A stretch of DNA of 62,533 nucleotides from positions 1 to 62,533 of the forward strand of contig PHDE01000003.1 in assembly GCA_002842505.1 (NCBI GenBank), written 5' to 3'. The notes beneath the pieces are model-generated. The model searched no databases, had not been told where the DNA came from, and saw only the letters and a list, made by a program, of their open reading frames with translations. Origin of the DNA: Bacteroidetes bacterium HGW-Bacteroidetes-3 (lineage in GTDB: Bacteria; Bacteroidota; Bacteroidia; Flavobacteriales; Flavobacteriaceae). The position numbers and the translations under genes were made by a program. Of this stretch, positions 4,525 through 52,497 are shown in pieces (position 1 is the stretch's first letter; each line of letters starts with the position of its first letter).

Positions 4525-5028
4525 TTATTCACTACATCTAGCTTTGTCAATGTCAACAATTACCCATGGTTCTTCATTCAAATACAAATATTTTCCAGAA
4601 ACTATAAAATGACTACCCCTATCACCAATAGCGTTGAAATGAAAATTCTCGCTTGAATCATTCTTTGAAAGGTCAAAAGTCGTAATTTCTTTATACTTAA
4701 ACACTTCTCCTGATTCACCAGTCAGAAAACCATTATAAGTCATATTCATAAATAGTAATACATCATTTTCAAATTGCATAACGCAATGAAAATTTAGAGT
4801 TCCACTGATATGATCCACGATATTATCGCCACACCATAAATCAAAATTTGCATAATCAAGCCAACTATGTGCAGTCGTTTCTTTTTTAGGTGATTTTGCA
4901 TTTAACTGATTTTCAGATGCTGGTTTTAATTGGCTATCTTTAAGAACAGCATTTAAATCGTCATCATTTTTTGAGCATCCTACTGCTATTAGAAATGCTA
5001 CCAGAACTAAATAAATTGAGTTTTTCAT
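4525..5028 (-). CDS. Hypothetical lipoprotein
   Basis: MKNSIYLVLVAFLIAVGCSKND signal peptide and lipobox. Confidence 0.75.
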   Translation of the reverse strand: MKNSIYLVLVAFLIAVGCSKNDDDLNAVLKDSQLKPASENQLNAKSPKKETTAHSWLDYANFDLWCGDNIVDHISGTLNFHCVMQFENDVLLFMNMTYNGFLTGESGEVFKYKEITTFDLSKNDSSENFHFNAIGDRGSHFIVSGKYLYLNEEPWVIVDIDKARCSE

Positions 5029-5043
5029 AATATATAATTTTTT

Positions 5044-5083
5044 GTTGATAATTTTCCTACTCTATTAAAGGATTTTCGGATTC
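5044..5083 (-). promoter_or_regulatory. Conserved leader element, copy 1
   Basis: gttgataattttcctactctattaaaggattttcggattc, 15 nt upstream of the ATG at 5028. Near-identical to 5578-5617 and 6459-6498. Confidence 0.75.
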
Positions 5084-5178
5084 TTCCTATAAACTCTTTT
5101 TGAAATAAAAGTGAATAAATAAATAACACTATTTGTCAGAGGTTAAATGAATTTCAACAATAGAATTTGCAAAATCTT

Positions 5179-5562
5179 TTATTTTTTCCCACTATTGATT
5201 TCGATTTCTAAGAATGAAATAGTTGTTTTGCCAGTGTTCTTAGTAGTATGTGGAGGATCAGCCGATGCCGACATAGCGTCTCCTGCTTTCAGATCAGACA
5301 CTTCTTTCTTTCCACTTTTATAATTTACAGTAATCTGTCCGCCTTGTAAACAATATAACATCTGAACAGGGTGTGTATGCATTACCAACTCTTTACCTGG
5401 TGCAAGTGTGCATTTTATCATTCGTACCCCTGCCGTTTCAGTAAGCAACTTGGCTAGTTTAGGGTTCGTTTTAACAACATCTTGGGCAGATGCGTGTAAT
5501 CCTGCCAACACTGTAATTAGCACAACTAATATTGCGCTGTGAATTAAATGTCTTTTTTTCAT
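5179..5562 (-). CDS. Secreted cupin-domain protein
   Basis: Signal peptide; cupin motifs KCTLAPGKELVMHTHPVQMLYCLQGG and LKAGDAMSASADPPHTTKNTG. Confidence 0.85.
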   Translation of the reverse strand: MKKRHLIHSAILVVLITVLAGLHASAQDVVKTNPKLAKLLTETAGVRMIKCTLAPGKELVMHTHPVQMLYCLQGGQITVNYKSGKKEVSDLKAGDAMSASADPPHTTKNTGKTTISFLEIEINSGKK

Positions 5563-5577
5563 AATATAAATTTTTTA

Positions 5578-5617
5578 GTTGATAATTTTCCTACTCTGTT
5601 AAAGGATTTTCAGATTC
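5578..5617 (-). promoter_or_regulatory. Conserved leader element, copy 2
   Basis: gttgataattttcctactctgttaaaggattttcagattc, 15 nt upstream of the ATG at 5562. Confidence 0.8.
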
Positions 5618-5704
5618 CACCTTGCTTCTCTATTAAACAATCATTTGTGGGAAAGTTTCAGAAAAAGAGGTTCTCTAATAAACTACGAATAAATAGTAGC
5701 GTAT

Positions 5705-6442
5705 TTAATTACACCCATAAACCTTGTTTTTAATAGTTCCTTTTACAGAAACACCATTTACCTTCATGTCGGTCCAAAAAGTTGTGTATCCGCTATTCCC
5801 TTTATCACAATCAATTTTAAGAAGAAAACAAAACATGGGACTTCCTATTCGTTTTGAAGGAGTTGCTGTATTCCAATACGCTTTCTTCAAATTGGTGATG
5901 CAAGTGATCACTGTTTGATTATTATCATTATTAACAGTAAATATTCTTCTTGTATCTTCTCCAGATGCATCCGAAACTAACATATGAGGCAGAAAATATT
6001 TAATATGGGGAAACGTAAACTCAACAACTGCATTATCTACATCTTCTGGACTAAAATATCCAAAATGAGCCATTAAATCATAATTTTCCGGATTATATTC
6101 TGTATCTCCATTTACATAATAAGGGGAGAAGTCATAATCTAATTGATGAAAACTATAACCTGGATATGCTGATCCAATTCCTGGTGGAGCCCATAAAGCA
6201 GTCATTAACACATCATTATTATCCCAAATTGTAATAGACCCAGGGGTTGCCCATGGAGTTATTGGCGTAGCTGTTTGTTTAGCAAGTTGAGACGTAATGG
6301 CGTCTGGAGTTGTTATGATTTCTTCAGGAAGCTGATTGTTTGCATCCAGAGAATCAGAATCTTTACTACAAGATACTGCGCTAAAAACCATCACTATCCA
6401 AAGCGTGCTTTTTAGCATTTTTAAGGCAATTGAATTTTTCAT
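5705..6442 (-). CDS. Hypothetical lipoprotein
   Basis: MKNSIALKMLKSTLWIVMVFSAVSCSKDSD lipobox; no domain recognised. Confidence 0.75.
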   Translation of the reverse strand: MKNSIALKMLKSTLWIVMVFSAVSCSKDSDSLDANNQLPEEIITTPDAITSQLAKQTATPITPWATPGSITIWDNNDVLMTALWAPPGIGSAYPGYSFHQLDYDFSPYYVNGDTEYNPENYDLMAHFGYFSPEDVDNAVVEFTFPHIKYFLPHMLVSDASGEDTRRIFTVNNDNNQTVITCITNLKKAYWNTATPSKRIGSPMFCFLLKIDCDKGNSGYTTFWTDMKVNGVSVKGTIKNKVYGCN

Positions 6443-6458
6443 AATTTAAAATTTTTTA

Positions 6459-6498
6459 GTTGATAATTTTCCTACTCTGTTAAAGGATTTTCAGATTC
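6459..6498 (-). promoter_or_regulatory. Conserved leader element, copy 3
   Basis: Same 40-mer as 5578-5617, 16 nt upstream of the ATG at 6442. Confidence 0.8.
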
Positions 6499-6555
6499 CT
6501 CCATTAAATTTGATAGAATTTTAAGTAAAGTTCCGTTAAAACAGCTGTTAATACA

Positions 6556-6772: not shown

Positions 6773-8941
6773 TCATTTATTTGTTGAAATCAGAAGACCT
6801 TCTGCTTGCAACAATCTTTCTACTTTGTTGTGTTCTTTCAAGTACCTGGATTCGGCATTTTTAAGAAATTCTTTATATTCGGGTTCATTACGTATGCAGT
6901 CTACCATTGGGCTAATTTTAAATCTTGAAATTTGTGAACAGAGATATAAATAGGAAGGCTGGCTGTTAACTACACGCAGGTGTTTCAATGCTTTTTCTTT
7001 TTCGCCAATGGCTGCATAAATAAAAGTTAATCCTAAATTCGCAGAACATATTATGGTAGGCTTGTTCTGTTCTATTATTTGCAACCTGTACTTAATTGAT
7101 CCGTCAAAATGAAAATTCGCCTCTTTCTTTCTGCCATTTTTATAGTAAATGTATCCTAAATAGAAATCAGGTTGAATTTTACGATTCTGCTGTTTCATAG
7201 ATTTGGTGTATTTTTCCAAAATTCGATACCCTTCTTTGTAATCTCTTAAATTCAAATATGTATTTCCTAGGAAGTAAGAATGATGTAAACCCAATAATTT
7301 GCCTAAGTTCAATGAATCTGCATTGTATATTTTATGCGCATATTTAACTACAGAATCATATTTACCAAGGTTAAAGTTTACATGTAGCAAACTCCAATAA
7401 TAATAGGTTGAATCGCCGGTTAGTTCAATTAGTTTTTCTGCATATTTTTCCCCTTCGTCATAAAGACCTATGCTATTGAAGCTATCCCATAAACTAATTA
7501 AATTATAACGTTTCTCAATTGAATTATTTTCAAGTTTAAGTGCCTTTAGCATATTCTTAATTGCATTATAAGAGTCACCCTTATTAAAATATCTTTCAGC
7601 TAAATAATCGTAAGCAGAAGATCCATTGGGATTGTACTGAATCGCCAGATTAAAGGCTTCCTCTGCTTTTTTGCTGATACCTTTCTCAGTAAACAACACG
7701 CCAAGCAAACCATAAGCATTGGCATTTTTATGATCGAAATGTAAAGCCTTGTTGGCAAAGAAAAATGCAGAGTCCAAATCGCTGTATGTTTCGTAGATCC
7801 AACCAAGTTGTACATACGGTTCTGCATACGTGGAATCTAATTGAATTGCCCTGTTGAAATAGTCTTTAGCTTGTTTGTCAAATTCAATATTATTTTCAAA
7901 ATCTGCAATATTGTGTAATTCAAATCCCCGGGAATACATTTCCCAAGCAGCGACACTGGTTGTGGGTGGTTTTTTAATTAATTCCTTTTCCCCAACGGTT
8001 ATAACCGCCTGAATTTCGGAAGCAACTTTTATAGCAATCTCACTTTGAAGATTAAAGATGTCATCCAGCTTCATATTATAACTATTGGAAAAAAGATGCT
8101 TGTCTGATCGCACATCTATTAATTGAATATAAAGGTTTACCTGATTGCCAATTTTTTGTCCGCTTCCTTCAATAATATAATTAACTCCAAGTTCCTTGGC
8201 AATTTGAGGAATTGTTTTGGTACTGTTATTTCGATATTGCTCAACTGACGTTCTGGGGCGAACTTCTAAATCTTTGACTTTAGAAAGATTGTCCAGAATG
8301 GCTTCCATTACCCCATTTATAAAATACACATTCTCAGTATCTTTGCTATCATTAATGAAGGGTAAAACTGCAATAGATTTCTTCTGGCTTTTTAAATGAT
8401 TGGAATTTTTAAGAAATCCGCTATTGAAAAAATAGATTAAAACAATGACAATCAAAATAGTAACGGGAACAAAAGCAATAACGCTCCTAATCTTCCTTTT
8501 TTTCTTCTTCTTGGAAGATTTTGTTCCGATATGCAAAAATTCCTGTTTTTTAAGATTTGTATTAACCAATAGTTCCTCTCTTTTTTCATCTGAACTATTT
8601 AATGCTCTTTTTTTTAACTCTCCAGGAGGATAACCAAAATACTCTGAAAAACAGGTGTTAAAATAGGCTGGGCTGCTAAATCCTACTTTAAAAGCAACTT
8701 CAGAAGCGGTTACAGAATCTTGCTGCAACATTTTCACGGCTTGTTGTAACCTAAATTCGCGAATATACTGGTTAATTGTTTTCTTGTAAATGTGGTGCAG
8801 CTTTCGATTTAAGTTAAATCTACTCATTCCAATTTTGGAAGCCAACTCTTGGACTCCAAAATTTTCATTTTCTAGGTTTGAAAGAATAATCTCATTCAGT
8901 TTCCCGATAAATGCTGAATCAATGGCAGATAAATCGTTCAT
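6773..8941 (-). CDS. Membrane-spanning AraC-type HTH regulator with TolB-N-like and TPR sensor region
   Basis: N-terminal AraC HTH (LASKIGMSRFNLNRKLHHIYKKTINQYIREFRLQQAVKMLQ...VAFKVGFSSPAYFNTCFSEYFGYPPGEL), one TM (IRSVIAFVPVTILIVIVLIYFF), KSIAVLPFINDSKDTENVYFINGVMEAILDNL, then TPRs. Confidence 0.88.
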   Translation of the reverse strand: MNDLSAIDSAFIGKLNEIILSNLENENFGVQELASKIGMSRFNLNRKLHHIYKKTINQYIREFRLQQAVKMLQQDSVTASEVAFKVGFSSPAYFNTCFSEYFGYPPGELKKRALNSSDEKREELLVNTNLKKQEFLHIGTKSSKKKKKRKIRSVIAFVPVTILIVIVLIYFFNSGFLKNSNHLKSQKKSIAVLPFINDSKDTENVYFINGVMEAILDNLSKVKDLEVRPRTSVEQYRNNSTKTIPQIAKELGVNYIIEGSGQKIGNQVNLYIQLIDVRSDKHLFSNSYNMKLDDIFNLQSEIAIKVASEIQAVITVGEKELIKKPPTTSVAAWEMYSRGFELHNIADFENNIEFDKQAKDYFNRAIQLDSTYAEPYVQLGWIYETYSDLDSAFFFANKALHFDHKNANAYGLLGVLFTEKGISKKAEEAFNLAIQYNPNGSSAYDYLAERYFNKGDSYNAIKNMLKALKLENNSIEKRYNLISLWDSFNSIGLYDEGEKYAEKLIELTGDSTYYYWSLLHVNFNLGKYDSVVKYAHKIYNADSLNLGKLLGLHHSYFLGNTYLNLRDYKEGYRILEKYTKSMKQQNRKIQPDFYLGYIYYKNGRKKEANFHFDGSIKYRLQIIEQNKPTIICSANLGLTFIYAAIGEKEKALKHLRVVNSQPSYLYLCSQISRFKISPMVDCIRNEPEYKEFLKNAESRYLKEHNKVERLLQAEGLLISTNK

Positions 8942-46912: not shown

Positions 46913-46997
46913 TTACCACAAGGGTCGCGCCTTTCGCTACAATCTTTTTTTCGGTAAAAAACCTCAAAAAAGTATTTCCACTACAGTCCCTAACGCA
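46913..46997. repeat. Interspersed repeat GGGCGTT...CCCTAACGC, copy 1
   Basis: gggcgttaccacaagggtcgcgcctttcgctacaatc...ctacagtccctaacgc; related to 52178-52266. Confidence 0.6.
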
Positions 46998-47124
46998 GCT
47001 TATCGTTAAAACAAAACAAATCGTAAATCAAAAATCGTATAGTGTAAATCAAAAAAAACAATATGAATAGAAACAACTGAATTGTATTTTTTATCTTTGC
47101 AACTTGTCAAAAATCTAAACAAAT

Positions 47125-52177: not shown

Positions 52178-52266
52178 TGGGCGTTTCCCTCCGGGTCGGG
52201 CTTTTCGCTGCAAGTCCTCGCACGCCCAAAAGCGCGACTGCGGGCTTTCCACGGCAATCCCTAACG
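52178..52266. repeat. Interspersed repeat GGGCGTT...CCCTAACGC, copy 2
   Basis: tgggcgtttccctccgggtcgggcttttcgctgcaagtcctcgcacgcccaaaagcgcgactgcgggctttccacggcaatccctaacgc. Confidence 0.65.
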
Positions 52267-52497
52267 CACAATGAATAAACAATTAAAATTTTTTTTCGCT
52301 CTCTTTGCGGTTAAAAATAAATAAGCCAATGATTTATTGTGTCTCCAACTTTGTGAACCTCAGTGTTTTTCCTTTGTGAATCTTTGTGCAACAGCTTTTA
52401 ATCACACGGTGATTCTCCGAGCGCCACTAAGTTACGCAAAGAAATATAGCGAACTTTGCGATTTATCTTTGCGCGCTTTGCGGTTAAAAAAACTTAT

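Follow-up and report, generated by a model that had tools for sequence, protein, structure and literature searches.

DUF805b RNA elements upstream of three consecutive genes in a Flavobacteriaceae genome and their probable action on translation initiation

DUF805b RNA (RF02914, clan CL00115) is a cis-regulatory RNA family that goes back to Weinberg et al. (2017); a literature search for DUF805 and DUF805b found no paper on the RNA motif. Its clan relative, DUF805 RNA (RF03081), has the same GAAAA...GAGUAGG core just 5′ of start codons and differs by an extra conserved upstream hairpin of its own (GUGGAGaCCAGAaACCAC). Small H-type pseudoknots with conserved loops near the start codon are also found in the preQ1-I, SAM-II and SAM-V riboswitches.

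Bacteroidia ribosomes make no use of Shine-Dalgarno pairing (PMC9976891). In F. johnsoniae, A residues at -3 and at -12/-13 promote initiation, and the zone from -20 to +20 is weakly structured (PMC6847099). DUF805b, an orphan regulatory RNA class, may bear on how ribosomes of Bacteroidota pick their start sites when such pairing is not used. Here we describe three DUF805b elements in a stretch of one contig (the window, 62,533 nucleotides), and the value of the finding lies in what comparison across the family shows about the class.

Identity and distribution of the leaders

An earlier note on this DNA reported a 40-nt leader repeated 15, 15 and 16 nt upstream of the ATGs at 5028, 5562 and 6442, with about two substitutions in copy 1. 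The gaps were the same when re-measured, and two substitutions were borne out. The 31-nt core of the leader lies on the minus strand at 5044-5074 (1 mismatch), 5578-5608 and 6459-6489. No such core is expected by chance (100 dinucleotide-preserving shuffles), and a search of the whole genome (3.55 Mb, up to 3 mismatches to the core) returned only the three window copies.

We found using cmscan with Rfam 15 that all three copies score above the RF02914 gathering cut-off of 35.6 bits on the sense strand. The repeated leader is three new instances of a known orphan class, DUF805b RNA. The copies share the consensus loops, the strand and the position upstream of an open reading frame; they carry stem S1 and the loops GAAAA and AGAGUAGG, with one S1 mismatch in copy 2, sit upstream of Bacteroidota protein-coding genes as the family does, and differ from it in nothing essential. 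For RF03081, cmscan gave no match in the window, where the upstream hairpin with its AGaCCAGAa loop is missing from all copies. The DUF805b elements begin a few bases 5′ of the block described earlier, at 5089, 5623 and 6504, and end 26, 26 and 27 nt before the ATG in copies 1, 2 and 3. The features, with S1 and S2 denoting the two stems, are as follows.

4525-5028, minus strand: lipoprotein 1, 167 aa, without a Pfam family
5029-5054, minus strand: linker from copy 1 element to ATG, 26 nt
5054-5089, minus strand: DUF805b element copy 1 (lipoprotein 1), RF02914, 48.7 bits
5087-5085 with 5072-5070, minus strand: copy 1 S1, GGA/UCC, read from the sequence
5080-5078 with 5057-5055, minus strand: copy 1 S2, UCC/GGA, read from the sequence
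5077-5073 and 5063-5058, minus strand: copy 1 loops GAAAA and AGAGUA
5179-5562, minus strand: secreted cupin, 127 aa, Cupin_2 (E = 2e-8)
5563-5588, minus strand: linker from copy 2 element to ATG, 26 nt, near-identical to linkers 1 and 3
5588-5623, minus strand: DUF805b element copy 2 (cupin), RF02914, 42.0 bits
5621-5619 with 5606-5604, minus strand: copy 2 S1, one U-U mismatch
5614-5612 with 5591-5589, minus strand: copy 2 S2, UCU/GGA, one U-G
5705-6442, minus strand: lipoprotein 2, 245 aa, without a Pfam family
6443-6469, minus strand: linker from copy 3 element to ATG, 27 nt
6469-6504, minus strand: DUF805b element copy 3 (lipoprotein 2), RF02914, 47.1 bits
6502-6500 with 6487-6485, minus strand: copy 3 S1
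6495-6493 with 6472-6470, minus strand: copy 3 S2, UCU/GGA, one U-G
6773-8941, minus strand: AraC-type HTH and TPR regulator, neighbouring gene

The gene calls of a lipoprotein, a cupin and a second lipoprotein, each downstream of a leader, were upheld together with their coordinates. No terminator-like sites were found between the three leader-bearing genes, and the three probably form one operon.

Next we examined how widely the element occurs. A covariance search of this genome finds six DUF805b copies, four of them over the cut-off; the three outside the window precede an aldehyde dehydrogenase (over the cut-off), a double-glycine-type (KGG) peptide and a small lipoprotein (both weaker). 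The same search finds the element in 43 of 60 relatives. Across the phylum it is present in 93 of 297 genomes with up to 16 copies per genome, while one Chryseobacterium genome carries 17 copies and none of the 14 control genomes has any. Almost all loci of the pattern scan carry Bacteroidota titles. A record titled Glaciecola amylolytica, a gammaproteobacterium (CP034120.1), has eight DUF805b matches and is probably a mislabelled Bacteroidota record; a metagenome-assembled genome titled Ruminococcus, with two matches, is probably mislabelled in a similar way. DUF805 RNA (RF03081) precedes a DUF805-like gene on a contig titled Ignavibacteriaceae, outside Bacteroidota proper.

Covariation and the DUF805b fold

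We parsed 149 elements out of 152 candidates, with a score that includes the pairs and thus carries a small bias. They share the layout S1a(3) - GNAA - S2a(3) - GAAAA - S1b(3) - 8-17 nt ending AGAGUA - S2b(3). The loops are near-invariant (GAAAA in 147 of 149, AGAGUA nearly always), and the outer stem pairs vary freely, but in concert: CG 54, GC 38, AU 35 and UA 15 for S1, and GC 65, UA 46, AU 13 and CG 12 for S2. In permutation tests the outer pair is Watson-Crick in 137 of 144 elements for S1 (42 expected) and in 131 of 144 for S2 (49 expected), values reached in 0 of 20000 shuffles for either stem. S2 is the cleaner test, because it lies outside the structure line that cmscan prints for the Rfam model.

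A second, independent set from the pattern scan, in which the register is fixed and no pair-based filter is applied, gave Watson-Crick pairs in 97 of 124 loci for S2 and in 103 of 124 for S1 (35 and 43 expected, respectively). Furthermore, in 44 ungapped sequences the pseudoknot pairs occupy 97.3% of cells, compared with 70.8% after shuffling and at most 49% in slid controls. The sense strand has 22 G-U cells for 7 A-C cells (counted from the parsed-element tables), as expected for RNA. Collectively, these two crossing helices with compensatory changes indicate that DUF805b, as judged by comparison, folds into an H-type pseudoknot about 33 nt long, with 3 bp in each of its two stems.

In copy 1, all six pairs of S1 and S2 form on direct reading of the sequence; the S1 mismatch of copy 2 counts against the model. 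The arms GGA..TCC and CCT..AGG had previously been suggested to allow alternative small hairpins. Such hairpins can form in the window copies, because their S1 and S2 arms carry the same letters, which is atypical of the family; across the family, however, the hairpin arms pair below chance, and the arms pair crosswise instead, as a pseudoknot. We rejected the nested alternative hairpins, which are depleted below shuffles in both the 144 and the 44 sequences. The below-chance cross-pairing of S1 and S2 arms in the 144-element set suggests selection against misfolding, the window copies excepted. As isolated molecules the window copies are predicted to fold no more stably than shuffled sequences. 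Simple thermodynamic stability is therefore uninformative here, and the fold must rely on a partner or on tertiary contacts.

Position before start codons and mode of action

Measured from the S2 end, the ATG lies a median of 21 nt downstream, and in 140 of 145 elements this distance falls within 10-35 nt. In the pattern-scan sets of named genomes and viral contigs, the gap between element and ATG peaks at 20-25 nt. The motif is held at a fixed spacing from starts. The linkers are rich in A at -3 (77%) and over -11 to -13 (75% at -13, 83% at -12), and in this they resemble the Shine-Dalgarno-less initiation regions of F. johnsoniae at or near the same positions (PMC6847099). What sets them apart from those regions is the added pseudoknot, a structured element immediately 5′ of the stretch from -20 to +20, which is normally weakly structured.

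The genes behind the element fit no single pathway, and many, not all, encode secreted proteins. Counted over the 144 proteins encoded downstream, the most frequent families are bacteriocin-like leader peptides (11), DUF6520, SnoaL/DUF4440, outer-membrane beta-barrels, subtilases, T9SS-sorted proteins, PixA, DUF805, caspase-like and tail-collar proteins. In the named-genome set an HU-like DNA-binding protein joins these, with rhodopsin again present.

The element is also found in phages. Its core occurs in 82 viral stretches (L287-L368, IMG/VR contigs), 80 of the 89 matches have all four tested pairs, and 41 of 45 viral records score over the Rfam cut-off. Up to four elements are found per record (for example in L294, L303 and L320), and the sampled contigs encode portal, terminase and tape-measure proteins. 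Phage elements sit 20-25 nt before the ATGs of genes for ParB-like proteins, HTH regulators, HNH endonucleases, a crAss001_48-related protein and small uncharacterised proteins. When the element was used as a short BLAST query on annotated phages, the one plausible match was in an unannotated human faecal phage.

The pseudoknot, the tie to the ATG and the operon, unrelated-gene and phage data narrow the role of this orphan class to probable control of translation start, gene by gene. The earlier suggestion of a shared post-transcriptional element gains support: all three copies are DUF805b RNA, with compensatory pairing across the family. We think it likely, on comparative grounds, that the three leaders are pseudoknots controlling translation initiation of each gene, with a fold probably stabilised by a partner and copies derived from leader duplication. 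The pseudoknot (S1 of 3 bp, loop GNAA, S2 of 3 bp, GAAAA, S1′, a loop ending in ANAGAGUA, S2′) would lie in the mRNA just 5′ of the ribosome landing zone, its 3′ end on the 5′ border of the ribosome footprint, and its folding would alter how efficiently ribosomes start at the ATG about 21-27 nt downstream. Two 3-bp stems are weak, so a trans-acting partner is probable; the 30S platform itself, a small molecule and an RNA-binding protein are all candidates. Each of the three genes in the probable operon would have its own copy through leader duplication. Position and context point to an action that is probably on translation, up or down; an effect on mRNA stability would, however, leave the same pattern. 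A broadly present partner is favoured, because phages have adopted the element and its targets share no pathway. More tentatively, DUF805b could be, rather than a pathway riboswitch, a general translation-initiation element of Shine-Dalgarno-less Bacteroidota, also taken up by their phages: a pseudoknot on the 5′ side of the 30S footprint by which ribosomes are recruited or gated.

A possible, if unlikely, rival reading makes the element the operator of a scattered regulon, which a dedicated RNA-binding protein would repress or activate. This would agree with the several copies per genome (up to 16-17) before unrelated genes, and with loops that are conserved in sequence around stems conserved as pairs only; the phylum-wide and phage distribution, however, would demand a widely conserved protein.

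We regard as doubtful a small-molecule riboswitch, in which the loops would form a pocket and a ligand would lock the pseudoknot and gate initiation, by analogy with preQ1-I, SAM-II and SAM-V. Near-invariant loops around freely varying stems are a hallmark of aptamers, and both size and location are like those of translational pseudoknot riboswitches, yet the targets (bacteriocin-like peptides, lipoproteins, DUF805, PixA, tail-collar, rhodopsin, aldehyde dehydrogenase, phage ParB/HTH/HNH) have no common pathway, and only a broad signal would suit them. DUF805b moreover differs from these riboswitches in its consensus, has no known ligand and no common downstream pathway, and belongs to a phylum in which there is no Shine-Dalgarno pairing that it could mask, so that the likeness is one of resemblance only.

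Finally, we considered whether the conservation acts at the level of DNA, as a core promoter, a TSS signal or a transcription-factor site, for example for the adjacent AraC-type regulator. The gene order of AraC-TPR regulator, element and lipoprotein 2 is kept in three relatives (G009, G021 and G034), an adjacency only; most copies precede unrelated genes elsewhere. In the DNA preceding 136 non-redundant elements, TAnnTTTG and related words are neither fixed in position nor positionally enriched, which led us to reject the promoter module, and there is no exact sense-strand match to TAnnTTTG, the sigma-ABfr promoter word, between the three window genes. Many copies lie inside operons: a co-directional gene ends within 60 nt upstream of 29 of 46 phage elements (median gap 14 nt) and of 37 of 145 genomic elements. 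Because the element is anchored to the ATG, lacks a fixed promoter word (including a -7 element) upstream and occurs within operons, its conservation follows the start codon of a single cistron and not a promoter. With compensatory pairing and G-U tolerated on one strand as well, a DNA-level role is very improbable, and the core promoter or TSS module that had been offered as the other option was not sustained, many copies standing 0-60 nt after a co-directional gene.

Local history of the three genes

The encoded proteins had been described as having no obvious homology, with conservation confined to the untranslated leader. The first statement holds in that lipoproteins 1 and 2 have no mutual BLASTP similarity, and we rejected them as homologues on this result; both are, however, halves of one fused protein in a relative. 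In G009 (L149:9933-10913), a single element precedes a 326-aa protein whose residues 1-211 resemble lipoprotein 2 and about 212-326 lipoprotein 1 (73% identity over 119 residues). The second statement needs qualifying. The three leaders are near-identical through the linker and first codons as well (ATGAAAAA.TCAATT), which were copied together with the leader, and the conservation is partly that of a recent leader duplication. This likeness beyond the element makes it most likely that the three leaders arose by duplicating one element-bearing leader, start codon and first codons included.

Relatives of lipoprotein 2 stand behind a DUF805b element in G009, G021 and G034. In G021 (L147) and G034 (L148), a second, decayed element follows lipoprotein 2 with no open reading frame behind it; AGAGAAGG replaces AGAGTAGG, and ATA replaces ATG. 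It is apparently what is left of a second gene that has been lost; past the decayed elements of both genomes no remnant of lipoprotein 1 was found. That the three leaders are functionless leftovers of recent tandem duplication is scarcely credible: the copied linkers and first codons, the fusion and the decayed copies speak for an active local history, but this accounts for the local similarity and not for the element, which precedes hundreds of unrelated Bacteroidota genes with compensatory changes, and the phylum-wide covariation contradicts it.

The cupin has only remote matches within the genus (32-37% identical). The AraC-TPR regulator at 6773-8941 may exert transcriptional control over the three-gene array. 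Elsewhere in the window, Flavo-1 RNA (RF01705), an unexplained Flavobacteriaceae motif, matches over the cut-off at 46919-47004 and weakly, below the cut-off, at 52190-52280.
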